Both the position numbers and the translations under genes were made by a program. Below the pieces are notes generated by a model, which did not search any database, had not been told where the DNA came from, and saw only the letters and a program-made list of their open reading frames with translations. A stretch of 64,000 nucleotides of DNA from Zeimonas sediminis (lineage in GTDB: Bacteria; Pseudomonadota; Gammaproteobacteria; Burkholderiales; Burkholderiaceae_E), in the NCBI RefSeq assembly GCF_023721795.1, contig NZ_JAMQYE010000001.1, forward strand, positions 1,302,001 to 1,366,000, given 5' to 3'. Positions 2,020 through 15,990 of the stretch are shown in pieces. How positions within the stretch are numbered: the first letter of the stretch is position 1; the number at the start of each line of letters is the position of its first letter.

Positions 2020-3891
2020 CTACTGCATCCCGACCGTGGCCTCGATCCTGAAGAAGTCCATCCGGCGCCGGTTTTCCTCGCCACGCCCGACCCGGCGCGA
2101 GTCCGGGGTCAGGTCGTAGTCGGTGCGGGCGGCAACCACGGCACGACAGGCCATGTAAGCGCGCACGCGAGGATCCTTCAGCCCGTCGAACTGGTGGTTC
2201 AGCGCATCGACCAGCCCGGCCTTGCGCCTGAACAGTTCGATCGTGCCTTCCAGGTCGCGGGGGGTTTCGCTGCGCAGCCCGACGATGCAGGCCGGGAGTG
2301 ATTGCGTTCCGCAGGTCGACGGCACGCGCATCGCCGCGACCTCCGGCAGGCGATCCGAGAAGTCGGCGTGCAGCTGGTAGGCGGTCTCGAGCAGCGCGTC
2401 CTGGTAGCGCATGCCGCTCTCGTAGAGCGCCTGCTGGCAGGGCCGGCACCATTCTCCGAGTCCCTCGAACAGCCACTCGAGCAAGGTGCCCCGGGCGTCC
2501 CGTTGCGCCTTGACGACGTGCAGGCTCTCCAGCTCGGCGACGAAGGCCGAGTAACCCGATGCCGCGCACACCTGCGACTCCCAGGCGCGCAGGATGTCGA
2601 CGTCGCTTTGGACACCGCCCCCATCGTTGGGCATGATCTCTGCGCGGACCTTGAGCCGCTTCGCCTTCTCGTCCAGGGCGAAGCTGACCCGCCGGTACGC
2701 GATCGGCCAGTCCGACAACGAGCTGACGTTCAGCTCGAGCAGGCTCCGTTCCCCGATCCGGTGGGTGGCCCAGAAGCCCCGGTGCGTGTGCGCCGACAGG
2801 TACACCAGCGGGTGGTCCAGGTCGGAGACGAGCGCGGTGATCCGGAACTGCGAACCGAAGCTGAGCTGGTTCCAGTTGTGATGCCCGGCGAGAACGACGA
2901 TGTCGCCCGCCCGCCTTGCTTCGTCCAGCCAGGGCGCGATCGCCTCGAGCTGGTCCGCGCGCACGTGGCCGATGTGTCCCGGGCTGATCGACCTCAGCGT
3001 GTCCAGGGTGCCGACCAGCACGTCGACCTGGTTCGTGTCGAAGCCGATCATCGTGACGCGCCGCGTCGCCCCCGGCGCGGCGGGCAGGCGCAACTTCTGG
3101 ACGACGAACGAATTCGCATAGAAGCGCTCGTCGAGCAGCTTCGCTTCGATCGCCTGCAGGTAGGCCTCGGGATCGGGATTCCGCCACGAGACCCTGACTT
3201 CGCCGGAGGGTCCCGGCGCCGAGAGGCCGGGCGCCCGGCTCCGGGCGAGCGTCTCGAGATAGGCCGTGACGAAGCCCCGCTTGTCGACCGCAACCTCCTT
3301 CGGATCGAGCCGCTGTCCCGGGTCTCCCTGCCTTGCCCCGCGCACGCAACCGCGATACCACGCACGGCTGCCGCCGTCCGTCAGCGCGGCAGCCAGCGGC
3401 TGGTTGAAGATGCCGAACATCAGTCCGTCGTGATTGCCGGGAAGAAGCGCCGCAGCCTGGCCGGCATGTTCGAAGACGGCCCCGATCCGGGCGAGCTCGG
3501 ACCTGCACGACATGTCGAGAACGTCGCCGAGATGAATGACCGGCTCTCCGGGATGGGCGGCAAGCGCCCACTCGAGGATCCGGCGCCCGAACAGTGGCTG
3601 CTCCGGCGGGCGCTGCGCGACCTCGACGTAGGAATCCACGGCGCCATCGTTGTCGTGCAGCGGAAAGCCGGTCGTCTCGTGCTCCTGGGTGTCGCCGAGC
3701 GCGATGATCGGCAGCGTGAGCTCCGCGAACTCGCCCGGCGGATCGGGCGGCGGAGGCACGGGGACGATGAACTGCGCGCAGCCCGCTGCCAGCCCGCCCA
3801 GCAGAAGGCTCGCGACCGCTCGAAACAGCCTGGCGGGTCGGCGCTCGGCGCCTTGGCGAATCGGCAGGTCGGGAACTGGTCGAACGTGCAT
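2020..3891 (-). CDS. Calcineurin-like metallophosphoesterase, predicted lipoprotein
   Basis: The ATG at 3891 is chosen because GGAG sits 7 bases upstream and the resulting N-terminus is a lipoprotein signal ending in LAAGC; longer in-frame forms (to 4374) lack this. The 623-aa protein shows the metal-binding blocks of the calcineurin fold in order: ALGDTQ, HLGDVLD, LLPGNHDG, LAGHHNW and SAHTHRG. These coordinate a dinuclear metal centre that cleaves phosphoesters. The roughly 300-residue C-terminal part is cysteine-containing and unrecognised. It sits at the outer membrane or periplasm by prediction and is followed one base later by an alpha/beta-hydrolase lipoprotein gene. Confidence 0.8.
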   Translation of the reverse strand: MHVRPVPDLPIRQGAERRPARLFRAVASLLLGGLAAGCAQFIVPVPPPPDPPGEFAELTLPIIALGDTQEHETTGFPLHDNDGAVDSYVEVAQRPPEQPLFGRRILEWALAAHPGEPVIHLGDVLDMSCRSELARIGAVFEHAGQAAALLPGNHDGLMFGIFNQPLAAALTDGGSRAWYRGCVRGARQGDPGQRLDPKEVAVDKRGFVTAYLETLARSRAPGLSAPGPSGEVRVSWRNPDPEAYLQAIEAKLLDERFYANSFVVQKLRLPAAPGATRRVTMIGFDTNQVDVLVGTLDTLRSISPGHIGHVRADQLEAIAPWLDEARRAGDIVVLAGHHNWNQLSFGSQFRITALVSDLDHPLVYLSAHTHRGFWATHRIGERSLLELNVSSLSDWPIAYRRVSFALDEKAKRLKVRAEIMPNDGGGVQSDVDILRAWESQVCAASGYSAFVAELESLHVVKAQRDARGTLLEWLFEGLGEWCRPCQQALYESGMRYQDALLETAYQLHADFSDRLPEVAAMRVPSTCGTQSLPACIVGLRSETPRDLEGTIELFRRKAGLVDALNHQFDGLKDPRVRAYMACRAVVAARTDYDLTPDSRRVGRGEENRRRMDFFRIEATVGMQ

Positions 3892-4462
3892 CGGGGAACT
3901 CCAAGGACGCATGCGGCCCCGGGCAGTCCGCTCGACAGCCTCCCGGTTCCGGAGCGGCTGGCGCCGGACATCGGGGACGCGGCACCCGGAGTGTGCAATA
4001 TCCCCGGGGCATCCGGCAATCGAGAGAACCTGCCGGCGACAGTCAAACGGAGGCACCAAAGCAATCGCTCGGCAGCGAGCGGCGCCGGCGGACGAGTTGG
4101 TGCGCGGGGGCCGCGCGCGTCGTGGTTGCGCGCTCCGGGCAGGCGAAGCCCGCTGTCGTTTCGGATGGAAACGCGCTGGCCGACGCTCGAGCGCGACGAT
4201 CTGCCAAACGTCGGGTCTCCGCCCGGGCAGAGCACGCGACACTTTCGCGCCATGCAGCTTTCCGGCCCTCACCAGCGACATTGACAAAAGGCAAGGGGGC
4301 GAGCAGCCCAGGCCGAAGAATGTCAAGTGCCTGCTAGTTGGGGAGCCCTCGGGGTTCGTAAAGTCCGCTTCCACCGACTGGCCGTGCCGCCAATCGCATC
4401 CACCGAAGGCGTCGCGGCGGGCTCGGCCCTAAACCAAAGTTCTCGACGAGGAAACTCCGGGC
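3892..4462. other. Divergent intergenic region, 571 bp
   Basis: This lies between the minus-strand metallophosphoesterase gene and the plus-strand run of small secreted proteins, so promoters for both must be here. Open frames crossing it are low-complexity GC-driven shadows without ribosome binding sites. A perfect TTGACA occurs at 4281-4286, but no acceptable -10 hexamer follows at 16-18 bases. No RNA gene, repeat or operator could be supported. Confidence 0.5.
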
Positions 4463-7484: not shown

Positions 7485-9707
7485 ATGTCCGCTTCCCCTG
7501 CCCCCTCCCCGACCGCCGCATCCGCGCGCCTCGGACTGTCGGCCCGGATCCTGATCGGCCTTGCCGTCGGCGTGCTCGCCGGCCTGTTCTTCGGCGAGCC
7601 GGCCGCCGCCCTTCAGCCGATCGCCGACATCTACATCCGGCTTATGCAGATGACGGTGCTGCCCTACCTGGTGCTGACCCTGATCATCGGACTGGGCCGG
7701 ATGGAAGCCGCCGAGGCGAAGCGGCTCGCGGTGCGCGCCAGCGTCCTGCTCCTCGTGTTCTGGGCCGCGGCCCTGGCGGTCGTCGGCGCGACGACCCTGG
7801 CCTTCCCCGACATGGAAACGGCGTCCTTCTTCAGCTCCTCGCTGGTCTCGGCGCGCGAGCCGCTCGCCCTGCACGAGCTCTACGTCCCGTCCAACCCGTT
7901 CAACGCGATGGCCAACGCGGTGATCCCTGCCGTCGTGCTCTTCAGTTCGGCCTTGGGCGTGGCGCTCATCGGGATCGAGAAGAAGGCGACGTTGCTGGGG
8001 AACCTTCAGGTTCTCGAGCAGGCCGTTTCCCGCGTCACCCGCTTCGTCATTTCGCTGACGCCGATCGGCGTGTTCGCGATCGCGGCCGTCTCCGCCGGCA
8101 CGATGTCGCCCGAAACGCTCGAGCGGCTCGAGGTCTACTTCGCGGCCTTCGCGGTGGCCTCCCTGCTGCTCGCCTTCGTCGTGCTCCCGCTGGCGGTGGC
8201 GGCGGTCACGCCCTTCACATACCTCGAGATCGTGCGCGCCTCGCGCGACGCGCTGCTGACGGCCTTCGTGGCGAGCAACGTGTTCATCGTCTTGCCGATG
8301 CTCGTCGAGCAGGCCAACGCCTTGATGGAAAAGCGCGGCGTTCGATCGCCTCAGGCGAGCTCGACGGTCGAGGCTCTCGTGCCGATGGCCTTCACCTTCC
8401 CGAACGCCGGCAAGCTCCTGACCCTTCTCTTCGTGCCCTACGTCGCGTGGCTGAGCGGCGTCCCGCTCGAGGCGGACCGCTTCGGCACGCTGTTCGGCGC
8501 GGGGCTGCTCGCCTATTTCGCCAAGGCGCAGGTGGCGCTGCCCTTCCTGCTGGACCTGATGGACCTGCCCCACGACCACTTCCAGCTCTACATCCCGACA
8601 ACGATCGTCACCGGCAAGTTCGACTCGATGGTGTCGGCAATGAGCCTGCTCGCGTTTTCGCTGATCGGCGCCGCGGCGATGACCGGATTCCTGCGGATCT
8701 CGGCGGCCAGGCTCCTCCTGACCCTCGCCCTGATCGCCGCCGCGGGGGCGGCGTCGGTGCTCGGGACTCGCGCCGTGCTCTCCGCGACCGTCGACACGAG
8801 TTATCACAAGGGAGAGGTGCTCAGGAAGATGCACGCGTCGAGGTCCGAGGCGCCGAACCTCGTGCACCGGGATCTCTCGAACCTGAAGCAGGACCCCGAG
8901 CTCGAGGGCCTGTCGCCGATCCAGCGGATCCGCGCCCGGGGCACGCTGCGCGTCGGCTACGACCCCGGCAACCTTCCGTTCAGCTTCTTCAACGCCGACG
9001 GAGATCTCGTCGGCCTGGACGTCGAGCTCGCGCAGGCCTTCGCGGAGTCGATCGGCGTGGTGGCCGAGTTCGTCCCGGTCGCGTGGCAGGAATTGCCTCG
9101 CATGCTGGCTTCGGACACGATCGACCTGATGCCGGGCGTCTGGTACCGGCCATTCTGGTTCTCGTCGGTGCGCCTGTCCGAGCCCTACTTCGAGGGCACC
9201 ATGGGCTTCGTCGTGCGCGATGCCCGACGTCACGAGTTCGCGAGCACCGACACGCTCCGCCGTCGCCGGGGCCTGCGCATCGGCGTTCCGCTCGATCCGG
9301 ATCAGGTCCGCGCCAGCCTCGAACGCTACTTCGGGAGCGCCCGGGTGGATTTCGTTCCGCTGGAGTCCGCGGCGCCCTTCCTCGAGGGCCGGCATCCCGA
9401 GCTCGACGCGTTCCTGATGCCGGCGGAGGCCGGCGCCGCGGCCACGCTGCTCCACCCCGAATACGCGATCGTGGTTCCCCAGCCGAATCCGGTCAGGGTG
9501 CCCACCGCCTTCGGCGCGGCACCCGACGCGCGCGACCTGATCGAGACCGTGAACGAGTGGATCGTCTTTGCCCAGAGCAGCGGCCGGATCCGGGAAGCCT
9601 ACGACTACTGGGTGCTGGGCCAGGGCGCCGAGCCGAAAGGCCGGCGCTGGTCGATCCTGCACGACCTGCTCGGCTGGGGCCACGAGGCCTCGGACAGACC
9701 CCGCTGA
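7485..9707 (+). CDS. SLC1/DAACS-type symporter fused to a family 3 solute-binding domain
   Basis: This 740-aa protein joins two normally separate modules. Residues ~1-410 are a dicarboxylate/amino-acid:cation symporter-like membrane domain with about eight helices and re-entrant loops; the usual NMDGT sodium motif is not visible, and FPNAGK occupies the comparable place near residue 305. One extra hydrophobic segment (RLLLTLALIAAAGAASVLG) follows and could bring the C-terminus to the periplasm. Residues ~480-730 are an amino-acid ABC-type binding protein (GTLRVGYDPGNLPFSFFN, GLDVELAQAFAE). It probably binds and imports an anionic or amino-acid solute. The next gene starts 34 bases on. Confidence 0.8.
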   Translation: MSASPAPSPTAASARLGLSARILIGLAVGVLAGLFFGEPAAALQPIADIYIRLMQMTVLPYLVLTLIIGLGRMEAAEAKRLAVRASVLLLVFWAAALAVVGATTLAFPDMETASFFSSSLVSAREPLALHELYVPSNPFNAMANAVIPAVVLFSSALGVALIGIEKKATLLGNLQVLEQAVSRVTRFVISLTPIGVFAIAAVSAGTMSPETLERLEVYFAAFAVASLLLAFVVLPLAVAAVTPFTYLEIVRASRDALLTAFVASNVFIVLPMLVEQANALMEKRGVRSPQASSTVEALVPMAFTFPNAGKLLTLLFVPYVAWLSGVPLEADRFGTLFGAGLLAYFAKAQVALPFLLDLMDLPHDHFQLYIPTTIVTGKFDSMVSAMSLLAFSLIGAAAMTGFLRISAARLLLTLALIAAAGAASVLGTRAVLSATVDTSYHKGEVLRKMHASRSEAPNLVHRDLSNLKQDPELEGLSPIQRIRARGTLRVGYDPGNLPFSFFNADGDLVGLDVELAQAFAESIGVVAEFVPVAWQELPRMLASDTIDLMPGVWYRPFWFSSVRLSEPYFEGTMGFVVRDARRHEFASTDTLRRRRGLRIGVPLDPDQVRASLERYFGSARVDFVPLESAAPFLEGRHPELDAFLMPAEAGAAATLLHPEYAIVVPQPNPVRVPTAFGAAPDARDLIETVNEWIVFAQSSGRIREAYDYWVLGQGAEPKGRRWSILHDLLGWGHEASDRPR

Positions 9708-9741
9708 GGGCGAGCGCGCCCAGGAAAAGGAGGATCACCCC

Positions 9742-12696
9742 TTGAGCCGACCATCTTCGCTCCGCGCGAAACGCGTCGCGGCCTGCATGCTGTTGTCGAC
9801 GGCGCTCGCGAGCGGCGCCACGCTGGCGAGCGCCGAAAAGGAGGCCAGCGACGCCGGCGACCGGCATCGCGGCTGGATCGCCGACATGAAGGAGCGCCCC
9901 CGCGGCCCCTTCTCCGCGATCAAGTGGTTCTGCAAGGACGGCAGGGTGTTGCCGCCGAAGGACTACTCGTGCGCGAAGCGCGGCGAGGGGTGGCAACACG
10001 GCGAATGGAGCGATCGCACCAGGGAGCTTCGCTCGAAGGGATACGCGATCGCGACGCTGCTCGCGGGCATGGAAGCGAGCAAGGCGATCGCATCGCCGTC
10101 GTTTCCCGACACCTACGCGCAGATCCTGGTGGAGCGTTTCCTCGTGGCGGCCGACGATGGCTGGATCTTCCGCAAGGCGCGCTTCTACCGGGGCGCGATC
10201 CAGGAAGAGGACGAGCGCGAGGGGGCCCGCAACCTGCTGACCGCATTGGCCGGTCGCGACGACTGGATCGGATACCGGTTTCCCGCGCTGCGGGCCGGCG
10301 TGCGCCTGCTTCCGCACGGCGCCGAGACGGCGTCGGCGCAGCGGGTCCGGAACATGGCCGCGGCCCTGGCAGATGCCGACCCGGCCTTCCAGCCGCTCCG
10401 GGTCAAGATCCACGGCTCTCCCGATGCCTCGGATGCTGCGAGCGTTCGCGACTACGGTGCCCGGTCCGCGAACGCCGGTCTGCGGCAGCGGGCGGAGGCG
10501 CTCGCCGCCGAGATCGACCGGGTCTACGCGCCGCGGCCGATCGCCGACGCGCTCGAGCGGGCCGCGAAGGACCTGGGAAGTTCGCCCCGGCTGCAGGCGC
10601 GCCTGCGCACGGCCGGCAGCGCCCTTTCCGCCGAGCGCAGCGCTATCCAGCGCTTCGTGACCACTGCCGCCCTGCTCGCCGACCTGCGCGACTCGCTGCC
10701 CGGGCTGGGAGCGCCGGCGGCACGCCTGAAACTGCTCGATCTGTCGTTGGCGGTGGAACTGGAGAACTTCCGCGCAGCCACGGAAATGGCAAGGGAGTTG
10801 CCGTCGACGAGCCGGCAGGACGGCCTGCGGCTGCTGTCCGCAGCCGCCGACGCGGCGTACGGGACCGGCATGCTCCGCGCCCGCGAGCACGCCGAGCTGC
10901 GGAAGTCGTTCCGCAGCGTCGCGTCCGATGCCATCCCCCTGTCGGACTACCTGGCGGCGCTGCGCCACCTCGCGCTCGTCCCCGGCTGGGGAACGCAGGG
11001 CCTGCGGATGCACTTCGGCGACGCAATGGACAAGCTTGGCGAGATCGAACCGCTCGCCGGCCTGTTCATCCAGGACCAGCTTCGCGGCAGCCCGCTCCTG
11101 TTCTACTCCCGGCTTCTCGACGCCTTGTCGCGCGACGCGAATCGGCTGGCGGGCGTGCGCCACAAGCTTCTCGGACGCGACATCGGTTCGGGCTTCAGCG
11201 CGCTGAATCCCGGCCTTGCGCGCGGGATCCTCAGGGCTGCCCCCGACATGAAGCGGGTCGAGGAATTCCGCCCAGACGGCATCTACGTCCTGCCGGAAAC
11301 CGTTTCGGATCTTCCGCCGCTTGCCGGGATCCTGACCGCCGGCGCCGGGAACCCCCTGTCCCACGTCCAGCTTCTGGCGAGAAACCTGGGGATCCCGAAC
11401 GTGGCGGTGGACGAGTCGCTGCTGCCGGAACTGCGCCGGCACGACGGCAAGCGCATCGTGCTCGCAGTCAGTCCGGCGGGGCTGGTCGAGATCAACGAGG
11501 ACGGACAGGGCTGGGATCGGGTGTTCGGCGAGCATAAGCAGGCCGAACCGGGGGTCATGTTCGAACCCGACCTGGACAAGCTGGATCTCCGCAGGCGGGG
11601 CTTCGTGAGTCTGGACGAACTGCGCGCGAGCGACTCGGGACGCATCGTGGGGCCCAAGGCTGCCAAGCTGGGCGAACTCAAGGCGAGCTTTCCCGACCGC
11701 GTGGCGCCCGGCGTCGCCATCCCGTTCGGCCTCTATCGGGAAACGGTGCTCGAGCGGCCCCACCGGAACTCCGGAAAATCCGTCTACGAGTGGATGGTCG
11801 AGAGCTTTCGCAGGCTCGAGTCGATGCCCTCGGGCTCCGCGGAAGCCACGGAATTCGGGGAGCGGCTGCGGGCCGAGATCTACGCGATCGTCCGGCACAC
11901 CGACCCGGGGCCGCGCTTTCGGCAGCGCCTGCGACAGGCGATGGACAATGCATTCGGCCGCGGCTTCGACGGCGGCGTCTTCGTCCGCTCGGACACCAAC
12001 GTGGAGGACCTGCCCGGGTTCACCGGCGCCGGTCTCAACCTCACGCTCTTCAACGTCGTCGGCTTCGAGAACGTCGTGCAGGCGATCGCCGAGGTGTGGG
12101 CGTCGCCCTATACCCCGCGGGCCTGGGCGTGGCGACAGTCGCACATGAAGGGACCCGAGCACGTCTATCCGGCGGTGCTGCTGCTGAAGACGGTTCCCTC
12201 CGAGATTTCCGGCGTGATGATCACGCAGGACGTCGACACGGGAGACCCGGACCGACTGTCGGTGGCGGTGAACGAGGGCGTCGGCGGCGCGGTCGAGGGG
12301 CAGGCCGCAGAGTCCGTCCGCATCGACCGCCGTACCGGCGTCGTGAGCCTGATGGCCACGGCGACCGCTTCGCGCCGGATGGTGCCGAGGTCGAACGGAG
12401 GCATTGCAAGGGTTCCCGTCTCCGGGGCCGATACCTTGCTGAACGAGGATCAGACAAGACAGCTGATAGCGTTCGCCGACGAGATCCCGAGGAAATTCCC
12501 TCAGCTGGGCGAGGACGGCAAGCCGGTGGCCGCCGACGTCGAGTTCGGGTTCGTCGGCGGGAAACTTTGGCTGCTGCAGATCCGGCCCTTCAATGAAAGT
12601 CGGGAGGCCCGGGGATCCGACTACCTGATCGGCATGGACATGGCGCTTTCGACGAGCCTCGGCCGCACGGTCGACATGAGGGAGTCATTCCGATGA
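9742..12696 (+). CDS. Exported PEP-utiliser/pyruvate-phosphate-dikinase-like protein
   Basis: The start is TTG at 9742, preceded by a perfect AGGAGG eight bases upstream; the frame is open to 9568, but that would overlap the symporter. The N-terminus reads as a Sec signal peptide (AKRVAACMLLSTALASG, then ASA). The 984-aa protein has an unrecognised helical N-terminal ~480 residues. Next comes a phosphohistidine domain with the catalytic-type His at 541 (NPLSHVQLLARNLGIPNV), then a PPDK-type ATP-grasp from ~635 to 950 (GPKAAKLGEL, VFVRSDTNVEDLPGF, LLQIRPF). His-domain-first order is that of glucan water dikinases, not of PEP synthase. Export of an ATP-grasp enzyme is unexpected. It is coupled to the next gene by ATGA. 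Confidence 0.75.
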   Translation: MSRPSSLRAKRVAACMLLSTALASGATLASAEKEASDAGDRHRGWIADMKERPRGPFSAIKWFCKDGRVLPPKDYSCAKRGEGWQHGEWSDRTRELRSKGYAIATLLAGMEASKAIASPSFPDTYAQILVERFLVAADDGWIFRKARFYRGAIQEEDEREGARNLLTALAGRDDWIGYRFPALRAGVRLLPHGAETASAQRVRNMAAALADADPAFQPLRVKIHGSPDASDAASVRDYGARSANAGLRQRAEALAAEIDRVYAPRPIADALERAAKDLGSSPRLQARLRTAGSALSAERSAIQRFVTTAALLADLRDSLPGLGAPAARLKLLDLSLAVELENFRAATEMARELPSTSRQDGLRLLSAAADAAYGTGMLRAREHAELRKSFRSVASDAIPLSDYLAALRHLALVPGWGTQGLRMHFGDAMDKLGEIEPLAGLFIQDQLRGSPLLFYSRLLDALSRDANRLAGVRHKLLGRDIGSGFSALNPGLARGILRAAPDMKRVEEFRPDGIYVLPETVSDLPPLAGILTAGAGNPLSHVQLLARNLGIPNVAVDESLLPELRRHDGKRIVLAVSPAGLVEINEDGQGWDRVFGEHKQAEPGVMFEPDLDKLDLRRRGFVSLDELRASDSGRIVGPKAAKLGELKASFPDRVAPGVAIPFGLYRETVLERPHRNSGKSVYEWMVESFRRLESMPSGSAEATEFGERLRAEIYAIVRHTDPGPRFRQRLRQAMDNAFGRGFDGGVFVRSDTNVEDLPGFTGAGLNLTLFNVVGFENVVQAIAEVWASPYTPRAWAWRQSHMKGPEHVYPAVLLLKTVPSEISGVMITQDVDTGDPDRLSVAVNEGVGGAVEGQAAESVRIDRRTGVVSLMATATASRRMVPRSNGGIARVPVSGADTLLNEDQTRQLIAFADEIPRKFPQLGEDGKPVAADVEFGFVGGKLWLLQIRPFNESREARGSDYLIGMDMALSTSLGRTVDMRESFR

Positions 12697-13964
12697 AGGG
12701 ACTTCGAATCGCACGGCCCCTCGTCCTCGCGGTCTGCGGGGCGCTGGCGGCCGCTGCACTCGCCTACCCGCTCGACGGCTACGAGGAAACCGGCATCCGC
12801 CGGCTCGAGGGCAGCCGTCTGGCGAACGAGGGAAAGGTCAAGGACGTCGGGCAGCCGCCGGGCGCGCTGCTGGGGCTCGACGCGGTCGACCTGCGGCTGC
12901 TCGGCCAGGATTTCGATCTTCCCGAACCGGACCCGGAATTCACCCGCCAGGTCAACCGAGTGCTGACGGGCAGCATGGACGCGTACGGCCTGGCGGTGCT
13001 CGACCTCAGCGACCCGTCCAGGCCGCGCTACGCGGAACACCGGGGCGATCACCGCCAGAACGTCGGCAGCGTGGGCAAGCTGGTGGTCGCGCTGTCGCTG
13101 TTCCAGGCCCTGGCGGACACCTATCCGGAGGATGTCGAAGCGCGCAGACGGGTGCTGGCGCGCACGGTCGTCACCGCCGACGGCTTCTCGCAGTCGGATC
13201 ATCACACCGTCCGGATCTTCGATCCCGCGACCCGGACGCTGACCCGCCGTGCGGTGCAGATCGGCGACCGGGCGACCCTGTACGAGTGGCTGGACTGGAT
13301 GCTGTCGCCGAGCTCGAACTCGGCCGCCGGGATGGTCATGCGCGAAACGATGCTGCTGCGGCAGTACGGGAAGGCCTACCCGCCGGCCGAGCCGGAGATC
13401 CGCCGGTTCTTCGATGAAACGCCGGCGAAGGCCCTGACCGAGCTCTTCGAACGCTCGTTCTACGAGCCGTTGACGCGAAACGGCCTGGACCTCGGCATGC
13501 TGCGGCAGGGAAGCTTCTTCACCGCCACCGGCAAGCGGAAGGTCCCCGGCCCGGGAGACAGCTACGGCACCGCGCGGGAGTTGATGCGTTACCTGTTGCG
13601 AATGGAGCAGGGACGCCTCGTGGACCCCTTTTCGAGCCGGGAGATCAAGCGGCTGATCTACGTCACCGAGCGGCGGATCCGCTATGCGTCCTCGCCGGCG
13701 CTGACCGAGTCCGCGGTCTACTTCAAGTCGGGATCCCTGTACGAGTGCGCGAAGGAGCCGGGGTTCGCCTGCCGCCCTTACGCAGGCAACGTCAGGAACT
13801 ACATGAACTCGACCGCGATCGTCGAGCATCCCGCCGGAGATCGGAGGCTCTACTACATGAGCACGCTGGTCACCAACATCCTTCGCAAGAACTCGGCCGC
13901 GGAGCATCAGGCGCTCGCAACCCGCCTGCACGGGCTGATCGAGTCGATCCACGCGCCCAGGTGA
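12693..13964 (+). CDS. Secreted serine hydrolase of the class A beta-lactamase/PBP fold
   Basis: The ATG overlaps the previous stop as ATGA, so translation is coupled. A signal peptide covers residues 1-24. The three hallmark motifs of active-site serine penicilloyl transferases are present in order: SxxK at Ser126-Lys129 (GSVGKL), SxN at Ser207-Asn209, and KSG at 345-347. At 423 aa it is much longer than class A beta-lactamases (~290), with an insertion between motifs two and three and two cysteines beside KSG. Peptidoglycan or another acyl substrate is possible; antibiotic resistance cannot be assumed. It ends the three-gene unit and faces a second hydrolase of the same fold. Confidence 0.75.
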   Translation: MKGLRIARPLVLAVCGALAAAALAYPLDGYEETGIRRLEGSRLANEGKVKDVGQPPGALLGLDAVDLRLLGQDFDLPEPDPEFTRQVNRVLTGSMDAYGLAVLDLSDPSRPRYAEHRGDHRQNVGSVGKLVVALSLFQALADTYPEDVEARRRVLARTVVTADGFSQSDHHTVRIFDPATRTLTRRAVQIGDRATLYEWLDWMLSPSSNSAAGMVMRETMLLRQYGKAYPPAEPEIRRFFDETPAKALTELFERSFYEPLTRNGLDLGMLRQGSFFTATGKRKVPGPGDSYGTARELMRYLLRMEQGRLVDPFSSREIKRLIYVTERRIRYASSPALTESAVYFKSGSLYECAKEPGFACRPYAGNVRNYMNSTAIVEHPAGDRRLYYMSTLVTNILRKNSAAEHQALATRLHGLIESIHAPR

Positions 13965-14041: not shown

Positions 14042-14950
14042 CTAGCGTCCGATCGGGGCCGTGACGAGGTCGTGCAGCGGCGCCGCCAGCCGAAGCAGCC
14101 ACTCGCCGCCGTCGGCATCGTCGGCGATCCCGACGAGGATGTAGCGATGCGCGCCGTGCTCGACCAGCACGCTGTCCGCGTGGTGATTGCGCCAGGTGCC
14201 GGACTTGCGGAACACCGCGCCGCCGGGCCGCGCCTCGAGCCCCGCGACGAACTTGTGCCGAATGCCCGGATTGGACAGGACATCCTTCATCAGCGCGTTC
14301 AGCGGCGGCGCGAGCAGCCTGTCGTTCGCGAGCAGGTAGTACAGCCGCGCGACCTGGAACGCCGTCGCGCCGTGCGAGAAGTTGTGCAAGGGATCGCGCC
14401 GGTAGGCACTCTGCCTGCCGTAGGACTTCCCGACCCACAGCCCCCCGCCGAGCTCCGGGTCGTACAAGCGGAATCGCGGCGACTGCAGGATCTCCAGCAG
14501 GCGTTCCTCGCCCACTTGCCTGAGCACGCGGGTCGCATCCTCGTTGCTGGAGTAGCGGATCATGTTGGTCATCGCCGCGAGCAGGTCGGCATCGATCGGC
14601 ATGCGCCCGTCTTCGGCCTCGGCGAGCGCGCCGAGCAGGATCGCGATCTTCGGAAGGCTCGCGGCGTACATCATGTGGTCGCCGTTGATCATCGCGAGCC
14701 GGGGCGCGCCGGGTCGTGTCGCGTCGACCAGCGCAAGCGCGAGCCGGCGCGCCCGAACCGCCTCTTCCAGCCCGAGCTCCCGCACGACGCGCTCGAGACC
14801 GGCCTGCAGCGCGGCATCGCGAGCCTGACGAAGCTCGGGCAGGACGCCGCTCGCGGCGTGAACGGCCAGCGGCGCCGAGAGGGCCGCGAGAAGCAGCGAA
14901 AGCCGGCAGAGGATGCGACGCAGGATCAATACGGCTCGGCCCGGCGGCAC
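14042..14950 (-). CDS. Secreted class A beta-lactamase-like serine hydrolase
   Basis: The frame is open to an ATG at 15064, which would cross the start of the divergent neighbour. GTG at 14950 follows AGG and gives a good signal peptide (ILRRILCRLSLLLAALS, ending VHA), so it is preferred. In this numbering SxxK is Ser98-Lys101 (ASLPK), SxN is Ser134-Asn136, and KSGT is 249-252. The ~300-aa size fits class A enzymes, but the omega-loop glutamate could not be placed with confidence. It converges on the preceding hydrolase gene, 77 bases apart, and could be a paralogue. Confidence 0.75.
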   Translation of the reverse strand: MPPGRAVLILRRILCRLSLLLAALSAPLAVHAASGVLPELRQARDAALQAGLERVVRELGLEEAVRARRLALALVDATRPGAPRLAMINGDHMMYAASLPKIAILLGALAEAEDGRMPIDADLLAAMTNMIRYSSNEDATRVLRQVGEERLLEILQSPRFRLYDPELGGGLWVGKSYGRQSAYRRDPLHNFSHGATAFQVARLYYLLANDRLLAPPLNALMKDVLSNPGIRHKFVAGLEARPGGAVFRKSGTWRNHHADSVLVEHGAHRYILVGIADDADGGEWLLRLAAPLHDLVTAPIGR

Positions 14951-15051
14951 GCGCCGACCTTCGCGCCTCGAAGCGAAGCGAGCGGCCTCGCCGGGCGGCA
15001 GGCCTTTGCGGCATCGGGAAGAACGGAAGACCACCACTGGAGCAAGGCGAA

Positions 15052-15990
15052 ATGAAAGGCTCAATCTGGATCGGCGCGATCGCTCTCGCCGCCGCCGGTG
15101 CGTTCACCACGATCGCGGGTGCCGCGCCGGAATCCATTCGGACCGAGACGGTGCGCTTCGAACGCGGCGCATCCGGCGCAGTCGTCGAGGACACGATCAC
15201 CGGCCGCCAGATCGTCGACTACGTGCTGCGCGCCCGGGAAGGACAGTCCATGAACGTCAGCATGGCGACGGACAACGGCGCGAACTACTTCAATATTCTC
15301 GCACCCGGCGAGGGGGAAGTCGCGCTCTTCAACGGTTCGACGTCGGAAAACCAGTTCGAGGGCGTCCTGCCCCGCAGCGGCGATTACCGCATCAGGGTGT
15401 ACCTGATGCCGTCGGCCGCGCGTCGGCACGAGGCGGCCAGGTATCGTCTCGAGATGATCGTGTCCGGTCCGGCAAGAGCCTCGGGCGCGCGGGCCGGTGC
15501 GACGGCCACCGCCGCACCGTCGACGAGCGGCTCCGATGCCGATCTCGGTCGAGCGATCCGGAAGACGCTCGGTGGCGACTGGGAGGCGAACTACTTCGAT
15601 GCCCGGGTGGACCTCGACGGCGACGGCACACCGGAGGTCGTGGCCATGGTCGCCGGCCCCATGGTGTGCGGCACGGGCGGTTGCCCGGTGCTCGTGTTCA
15701 CGCCGTCGCCGGACGGTCTTCGGCTCGTCTCGCGGATCAGTGTGTCCCGTCCTCCGGTGGCGGTTTCGAGCCGGAGCTCTCATGGCTGGCGCAACCTCAT
15801 CGTCACCATCGGTGGCGGCGGAATCCCCTCCGGCAGCGCAGAGTTGCGGTTCGACGGCAGGCGCTACCCGTTCAATCCGACGGTGCCGCCGGCCCTGGCG
15901 CCGGCCGATCTCGCGTCGGGGGAAGTCCTGATCCCCGAATTCCGCTCGTTCAGGGACGGCAAGCCGCTTCCCGCCGCTGCGGCCGAGTGA
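15052..15990 (+). CDS. Secreted two-domain beta-rich protein
   Basis: The ATG at 15052 gives a Sec signal peptide of ~24 residues; an open frame from 14716 is antisense to the hydrolase gene and is not used. The first half (~residues 25-135) resembles a bacterial pre-peptidase C-terminal type beta-sandwich (IVDYVLRAREGQSM, FEGVLPRSGDYRIRVY). An alanine/threonine/serine linker follows. The second half includes DLDGDGTPEV, a calcium-loop-like motif of FG-GAP/VCBS repeats, and a CGTGGC pair. The function is unknown. It is followed 16 bases later by another exported protein and is probably co-transcribed with it. Confidence 0.7.
   Translation: MKGSIWIGAIALAAAGAFTTIAGAAPESIRTETVRFERGASGAVVEDTITGRQIVDYVLRAREGQSMNVSMATDNGANYFNILAPGEGEVALFNGSTSENQFEGVLPRSGDYRIRVYLMPSAARRHEAARYRLEMIVSGPARASGARAGATATAAPSTSGSDADLGRAIRKTLGGDWEANYFDARVDLDGDGTPEVVAMVAGPMVCGTGGCPVLVFTPSPDGLRLVSRISVSRPPVAVSSRSSHGWRNLIVTIGGGGIPSGSAELRFDGRRYPFNPTVPPALAPADLASGEVLIPEFRSFRDGKPLPAAAAE

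Follow-up and report, generated by a model that had tools for sequence, protein, structure and literature searches.

A dikinase-like protein, putatively exported, in a conserved gene module of Zeimonas sediminis and other bacteria

The described dikinases combine an ATP-grasp domain with a swivelling domain that carries a phosphorylatable histidine. In phosphoenolpyruvate (PEP) synthase and in pyruvate phosphate dikinase (PPDK), the ATP-grasp comes first and is followed by the histidine domain and by a C-terminal TIM barrel. In the plant glucan water dikinases (GWD), the histidine domain precedes a C-terminal ATP-grasp of the PPDK type, the TIM barrel is absent and carbohydrate-binding modules are found on the N-terminal side. 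Rifampin phosphotransferase (RPH), a cytoplasmic enzyme, also lacks the TIM barrel and has the order ATP-grasp, drug domain, histidine domain. In the periplasm, ATP should be scarce, and enzymes that consume it would not be looked for there. The present analysis concerns a gene that encodes a dikinase-like protein, putatively exported. It is carried by a stretch of 64,000 nucleotides from Zeimonas sediminis (contig NZ_JAMQYE010000001.1, positions 1,302,001 to 1,366,000), called here the window. At the level of the sequence, its export signal and its belonging to a conserved gene module are well supported. An exported dikinase of this kind, or this module, was not found described in the literature searched, which mostly left out subscription journals and preprints. 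The route of ATP into the Gram-negative periplasm is called unknown in the sections of one source used here (PMC7432876). In the sections used of another source, NTT transporters, among them NTT-HEAT fusions, are reported from numerous free-living bacteria, their function being still open (PMC5381601).

The gene occupies positions 9742..12696 on the plus strand, as do all the features of the protein given below, and codes for 984 amino acids. A TTG start at 9742 and a stop at 12696 were confirmed in the sequence; the open reading frame (ORF) and its translation, Pfam matches and full-length homologues concur. A Shine-Dalgarno-like AAGGAGG (9727..9733), read from the sequence, is located 8 bases upstream of the start codon. 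The ORF is not a chance one, because proteins from two betaproteobacterial metagenome-assembled genomes (MAGs), at loci L051 and L052, are 69% and 67% identical to its product, and because the other 39 members of the 40-row family alignment A4 (from which the divergent L170 and L172 are excluded) show 31-75% identity. Residues 1-31 (9742..9834; LSRPSSLRAKRVAACMLLSTALASGATLASA, followed by E) resemble a Sec signal peptide and are positive with the heuristic described below. They are followed by an N-terminal domain of about 440 residues (about residues 45-480; 9874..11181), which includes the conserved Cys64 and Cys77 and has no Pfam match. A phosphohistidine, or swivel, domain comes next (about residues 485-600; 11194..11541), with the His541 codon at 11362-11364. 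Its match to PEP-utilizers (PF00391) is weak (residues 518-555, E 0.0021, below the family's own cut-off) and GWD1_pHisD is weaker (residues 528-581, E 0.11, 12.5 bits vs a cut-off of 27). Finally, a PPDK_N-type ATP-grasp (residues 635-957; 11644..12612), containing K639, R749, E934, Q946 and R948, matches Pfam above cut-off (E 3.7e-30).

The same layout is found in the family. In a Pfam scan of 40 members at E <= 1, PPDK_N was present in 40/40, PEP-utilizers in 39/40 (best E 2.6e-6) and GWD1_pHisD in 9/40 (best E 0.02), and no other Pfam family appeared in more than one of them, for which reason the N-terminal part is called unrecognised. Neither the window protein nor the 40 members had a Pfam match to the TIM-barrel (PEP/pyruvate) domain, and no carbohydrate-binding module was matched in the 40 members. 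AlphaFold2 models computed from three sequences reached a mean pLDDT (predicted local distance difference test) of 39 for the whole protein and of 48 for the N-terminal part. These low-confidence models suggest that the N-terminal domain is mainly helical. Foldseek, run with the N-terminal model at this mean pLDDT of 48, returned nothing below E 0.4, and no fold was assigned. The features that an earlier note had read from the letters of this DNA alone, namely the Shine-Dalgarno sequence with its TTG start, the Sec-type signal peptide, the histidine domain placed before an ATP-grasp reaching to the C-terminus and the unrecognised N-terminal domain, hold up.

With an ATP-grasp bearing ATP-site residues and a swivel domain bearing a phosphorylatable histidine, the protein has what defines the dikinase superfamily. 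Its order of domains, phosphohistidine domain and then ATP-grasp up to the C-terminus, is that of the GWDs, and the LSHV...ARN residues around the active histidine resemble those of GWD. The earlier note had drawn the parallel in domain order. The order is indeed the same, but it is not confined to GWDs, since a protein encoded by a Streptomyces plasmid aligns without interruption to residues 514-828 of the window protein, with identical domain order. The latter (L184 3350-5356, NZ_CP108236.1) is a PEP/pyruvate-binding domain protein, and its neighbours are an MFS transporter and a protein of the ATP-grasp type. The family further differs from the GWDs in being bacterial and exported-looking, in its weak GWD1_pHisD matches (below cut-off in the window protein) and in the lack of recognisable carbohydrate-binding modules; the tests made gave no link between its N-terminal domain and GWD. 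With PEP synthase and PPDK it shares the PPDK_N ATP-grasp, whose best match among solved structures is 8a8e, and the swivel domain, whereas the order is reversed, no TIM barrel is matched and the protein looks exported. In addition, the window genome has a separate PEP-synthase-like gene (G000:C1:353360; PPDK_N, E 8.6e-125). Like RPH, the protein is a dikinase without TIM barrel, but the order of domains is reversed, the window protein looks exported, and the NCBIfam RPH models gave 69.5 bits (cut-off 999) and 54.6 bits (cut-off 1700).

Because the ATP-grasp is shared, scans with the whole protein or with alignment A1 (genus, order and family samples) drew mostly other proteins, largely of the size of PEP synthase. 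This was avoided by A3, a profile of the N-terminal plus histidine part. With A3 at E <= 1e-10, 35 of 369 genomes of the class sample were positive, the window's included and a few as fragments (e.g. G305, G630); they belong to 25 families. In the phylum sample, 24/398 genomes matched, again with the window's, and 19 of the 24 come from one genus. Within the window's own family, the A1 search of 74 genomes gave one further genome, G237. No relative was found in viral contigs. Eighteen plasmid records had some match to the dikinase, and in none of them did it cover 80% of the query. The loci compared below number 43, that is 40 stretches around members plus the window, L051, L052 and L054, minus L174. 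L174 duplicates L054 and is left out of all counts except that of cysteines, made on 43 rows. Counts over 42 members include the divergent L170, L172 and L173. Two aberrant relatives may be mentioned. At L162 (8299-11385, G276), an in-frame TAG splits the dikinase gene; the split gene does not figure in the family alignments, its pieces having been searched on their own. L172 (8679-10715, G155) is a shorter exported-looking relative with an open frame of 678 amino acids, which has the histidine and ATP-grasp domains and is devoid of the conserved N-terminal cysteine motifs.

Export of the dikinase looks conserved across the family. The N-termini were assessed with a rule of our own, as distinct from a trained predictor, that considers the start codon, a positively charged n-region and a hydrophobic core. 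By this heuristic, 39 of 42 members have a signal-peptide-like N-terminus, vs 1 of 61 PEP-synthase-type controls (ORFs of at least 700 amino acids with ATP-grasp motifs, loci L004-L050 and L055-L082), for which the rule was slightly different in that the hydrophobic stretch had to stop upstream of the GGK motif. Members L143, L156 and L169, which fail the rule, are borderline by eye. Cysteines point in the same direction. C64 is kept in 41/42 members, C77 in 40/42 and both together in 40/42, and exactly two cysteines occur at or after position 40 in 32/43 rows, one row being a duplicate; the 61 controls have 4-11 each, counted from the GGK motif onward. This two-cysteine pattern fits one structural disulfide formed in an oxidising compartment. 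The earlier note had allowed for export being misread, and homologues without signal peptide were sought. Such a misreading is unlikely, because the signal-peptide-like start belongs to nearly all members and to a single control.

The residues expected of an active enzyme are also conserved. In an ATP-grasp of the PPDK_N type, the ATP-site residues are Lys, Arg, Glu, Gln and Arg. H541, K639, R749, E934, Q946 and R948 are all retained in 41/42 members, at identities down to about 30%, which is an enzyme-like pattern. The exception, L170, has five of the six changed (H541R, K639Q, R749L, E934R, R948L) and is probably a pseudoenzyme. Its gene (8054-10972, G847) still encodes a signal peptide and lies in a stretch without the three partner genes described below. 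In RPH, Lys22 and Arg117 are needed for drug inactivation while Glu297 is dispensable, according to the parts of the study used (PMC4844700). From their position in the motifs, K639 and R749 may correspond to Lys22 and Arg117, and E934 to Glu297. Alignments to solved chains display R749 and the C-terminal motifs, not K639. A donor other than ATP, another suggestion of the earlier note, is not favoured by the retention of this site, nor by the co-occurrence of the family with TLC/NTT-type transporters. The sequence data lend support to its idea of a novel extracytoplasmic phosphotransfer protein.

The survey of homologues also revealed that the gene, far from standing alone, is part of a module with recurrent neighbours, BLA1 (37/43 loci), BLA2 (31/43) and a TLC-type transporter (26/43). 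In the window, BLA1 (12693..13964, plus strand; PF13354, E 3.1e-6) and BLA2 (14042..15064, minus strand; PF13354, E 1.3e-10; true start perhaps internal) encode exported-looking serine proteins of the class A beta-lactamase fold, and these two proteins, the only ones scanned for PF13354, are both above cut-off. The start of BLA1 overlaps the stop of the dikinase gene as ATGA, and BLA2 is convergent with BLA1. Where present, BLA1 always follows the dikinase gene on the same strand (37/37), at 400 bases or less in 35 of the 37 loci. Among the 34 loci that could be tested for it, 18, the window being one of them, allow a 4-base overlap of the ATGA type. Two of the six loci without BLA1, L138 and L173, end less than 600 bases from the dikinase. 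BLA2 is downstream on the opposite strand in 26 of its 31 loci. The motifs of the class A beta-lactamase fold are SxxK, SxN and K(S/T)G, and both proteins have them. S126xGK129, S207xN209 and K345SG347 of BLA1 are each kept in 35-37 of 37 sequences, with a conserved cysteine pair of its own in 35/37; S136LPK139, S172SN174 and K287SG289 of BLA2 are each kept in 30-31 of 31. What sets the two apart from described members of this fold is their link to a dikinase and the absence of phmmer matches among solved chains (E <= 1 in one search, E <= 0.1 in the other). Pairwise distances between dikinases correlate with those between BLA1 proteins (r 0.90), between BLA2 proteins (0.85) and between TLC neighbours (0.65). 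None of 500 permutations reached these values; shared species history alone could produce such a correlation. Variations of the layout were seen. An opposite-strand gene lies between the dikinase and BLA1 at L140 (12698-15421) and L144 (12345-15074), encoding a TPR-repeat protein in the latter, and L165 (12246-14364) and L168 (2786-6165) each have two BLA2-type genes.

The third recurrent neighbour, found in 22/43 loci by neighbour clustering, is of the TLC type. The Pfam TLC family (PF03219) was matched above cut-off by the three neighbours scanned (E 5.5e-11, 4e-16 and 1.1e-13), two from the recurrent cluster and one larger protein of another cluster with weak HEAT matches. A profile of the recurrent cluster finds a TLC-like gene in 26/43 loci, some being weak (L150, 52 bits), and the aligned cluster, A5, built from these loci, matches solved ADP,ATP carriers (9j3n, E 5.3e-30; 9j3j, E 2.4e-21). 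At L052, which carries one of the close relatives of the window protein, the TLC stop and the dikinase start overlap as ATGA. The position of the gene varies, upstream of the dikinase at L052 and L153, for example, and downstream at others. It is 31 kb from the dikinase in G464, and in the draft assemblies G333, G567 and G440 the two genes are on different contigs, so that their distance cannot be judged. The larger TLC-type proteins form one cluster (L137 565-2790, L141 15523-17841, L142 15370-17892, L139 1242-3518, L145 1-2018). In that of L137, HEAT-repeat matches are below cut-off; they recall the NTT-HEAT fusions mentioned in the NTT source (PMC5381601).

From these elements, the following scheme may be envisaged. 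The dikinase, a member of the PPDK/PEP-synthase/GWD superfamily, would work either in the periplasm itself or at the periplasmic surface of the inner membrane. Its ATP-grasp would hand a phosphate from ATP to His541, as in its relatives; the histidine domain would then swivel and deliver this phosphate to an acceptor, which the N-terminal domain would bind, with release of AMP and phosphate. An envelope sugar, lipid, peptide or small molecule would be expected as the acceptor; pyruvate or PEP would not, because no TIM-barrel domain was found. In most members, a TLC/NTT-type exchanger would supply the nucleotide or recover AMP or ADP. BLA1 and BLA2, presumably periplasmic, would act on the substrate or on the product of the dikinase. 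That an exported dikinase with an intact site, a periplasmic acceptor, a TLC supply or recovery system and the two serine proteins belong to one pathway seems to us plausible, with doubt keeping a slight edge. The sequences support the export signal, the intact site, the conserved module and the co-occurrence with TLC. The direction and substrate of the transporter, the phosphate donor, the acceptor, the roles of the serine proteins and the order of the steps are as we infer them. A more specific version, put forward tentatively and with rather more doubt than trust, is that a TLC/NTT subfamily exports ATP or another nucleotide in exchange for AMP or ADP, the exported dikinase phosphorylates an envelope substrate and the two serine proteins finish the pathway, in many free-living proteobacteria. 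It hypothesizes that periplasmic ATP would be supplied by TLC. If true, one NTT group of free-living bacteria would receive a function and the question of how ATP reaches the periplasm would receive one answer. In a compartment with little expected ATP, conservation of the ATP-site residues in 41/42 members and of a signal-peptide-like start in 39/42, in genomes that mostly carry a putative nucleotide exchanger, makes both the role of NTTs in free-living bacteria and a path of ATP from cytosol to periplasm testable with few genes. The two conserved beta-lactamase-fold proteins also gain a pathway context.

The class sample served to quantify the association of the two genes. Of its 369 genomes, 67 have a PF03219 match, namely 31/35 dikinase-positive vs 36/334 negative ones (Fisher p 3e-22, a value that ignores relatedness and overstates independence, the 35 genomes representing 25 families, 22 of them with TLC). 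With A5, the counts are 34/35 vs 66/334 at E <= 1e-10 and 30/35 vs 3/334 at 300 bits or more. At 500 bits or more, 26/35 dikinase genomes are positive vs 0/334 others, a result that is partly circular as 15 of the 26 genomes supplied A5 sequences; the remaining 11 supplied none, and all 11 are dikinase-positive. Several facts, besides this circularity and relatedness, weigh against the proposed pathway. TLC-family genes are not rare without the dikinase, as the 36/334 (PF03219) and 66/334 (A5, E <= 1e-10) show. In 17/43 loci, no TLC gene is present in the stretch examined, several of these being short contigs. All five TLC neighbours compared to TIGR00769, the NCBIfam model for exchange of nucleoside triphosphates and diphosphates (NTP/NDP), scored 34.8-55.9 bits vs a cut-off of 387.2; because they are so far below it, they may carry something other than NTP/NDP. 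According to the parts of the source considered, the characterised NTTs are mainly importers and none feeds a periplasmic enzyme (PMC5381601). A5 was without match in 4 of 15 dikinase genomes tried, G000, G237 (79% complete), G847 (with the degenerate L170) and G690. In the window genome itself, which is 99% complete and consists of 3 contigs, neither PF03219 nor A5 found a TLC gene; among the dikinase genomes of the class sample, it alone lacks an A5 match. Supply by TLC would not account for this genome, the place held by TLC in L052 being occupied in the window by a gene for a dicarboxylate symporter (SDF) fused to a family-3 solute-binding domain (7485..9707, plus strand; PF00375 and PF00497). 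This gene ends 34 bases upstream of the dikinase, and strong matches to it beside the dikinase were seen elsewhere only at L054/L174 and L136.

The main rival explanation is the use of external ATP. In such a model, ATP or another nucleotide would arrive from outside, from lysed cells or by leakage, and TLC would import AMP, ADP or another product, with no dedicated export of ATP. The module data are the same in this case, the direction of transport cannot be read from a sequence, and the model would accommodate genomes that lack TLC, the window's among them. Moreover, the portions used of one study report that extracellular ATP enters the E. coli periplasm and give a steady-state periplasmic level (PMC7432876). 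What makes scavenging unlikely, while leaving it a serious contender, is that the TLC subfamily tracks the dikinase (26/35 vs 0/334 at 500 bits or more) more tightly than a general scavenger needs, and that nucleotidases or nucleoside transporters account for 0/10 annotated neighbours, clusters in three loci or fewer being mostly left out of this count. The link between dikinase and TLC could also reflect shared ancestry and a chance neighbourhood, since the sampled genomes are related and TLC genes are found in dikinase-negative genomes with PF03219 or with the sensitive profile. We regard this as improbable: TLC may be upstream, downstream or 31 kb away (G464) and yet stays with the dikinase, in 25 families.

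Other explanations question the enzyme or its substrate. An exported protein without catalysis, acting as a sensor of a nucleotide or related ligand or as a scaffold for the two serine proteins, would agree with the expected scarcity of periplasmic ATP and with L170, which indicates that the protein can persist without its chemistry. The retention of all six residues in 41/42 members that are as little as about 30% identical renders this rather improbable. An ordinary cytoplasmic PEP synthase or PPDK, with an N-terminus misread as a signal peptide, is very improbable. In favour of this alternative are the PPDK_N domain and NCBIfam matches that are mostly to PEP synthase models, all far below cut-off. 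It was rejected in view of the reversed domain order, the missing TIM-barrel match, the separate PEP-synthase-like gene and the conserved export signal (39/42 vs 1/61), to which are added the conserved cysteine pair and the exported look, by eye, of BLA1 and BLA2. A periplasmic island modifying drugs or metabolites may also be imagined, in which an RPH-like dikinase and two beta-lactamase-like proteins would inactivate toxic compounds. BLA1 and BLA2 do retain SxxK, SxN and KSG, and RPH, a related dikinase, phosphorylates a small molecule; in the sections used of the RPH study, however, the ATP-grasp comes first and His825 is near the C-terminus (PMC4844700). No rifampin-binding domain was recognised in the dikinase, a nucleotide transporter would be an unusual partner for resistance, and the distribution over 25 families with 0/18 plasmid records covering 80% of the query is unlike that of a mobile resistance gene. 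We consider such an island quite improbable.

The wider surroundings of the module are more variable. Neighbour clusters common to 3-5 loci, annotated in part, include Lon, a Ser/Thr kinase, SDR, OmpA, radical SAM and dihydroorotate dehydrogenase proteins, and look like lineage neighbours; a TPR protein is found at two loci. In the window, several small proteins, mostly with signal-peptide-like N-termini by eye, are encoded on the plus strand between 4463 and 7296, and four of them that were scanned had no Pfam match at E <= 0.01. About 5.4 kb upstream of the dikinase, a gene on the minus strand (2020-4374) encodes a calcineurin-like phosphoesterase that looks exported by eye, with a Metallophos match (E 4.9e-5) in its part 2023-4185.

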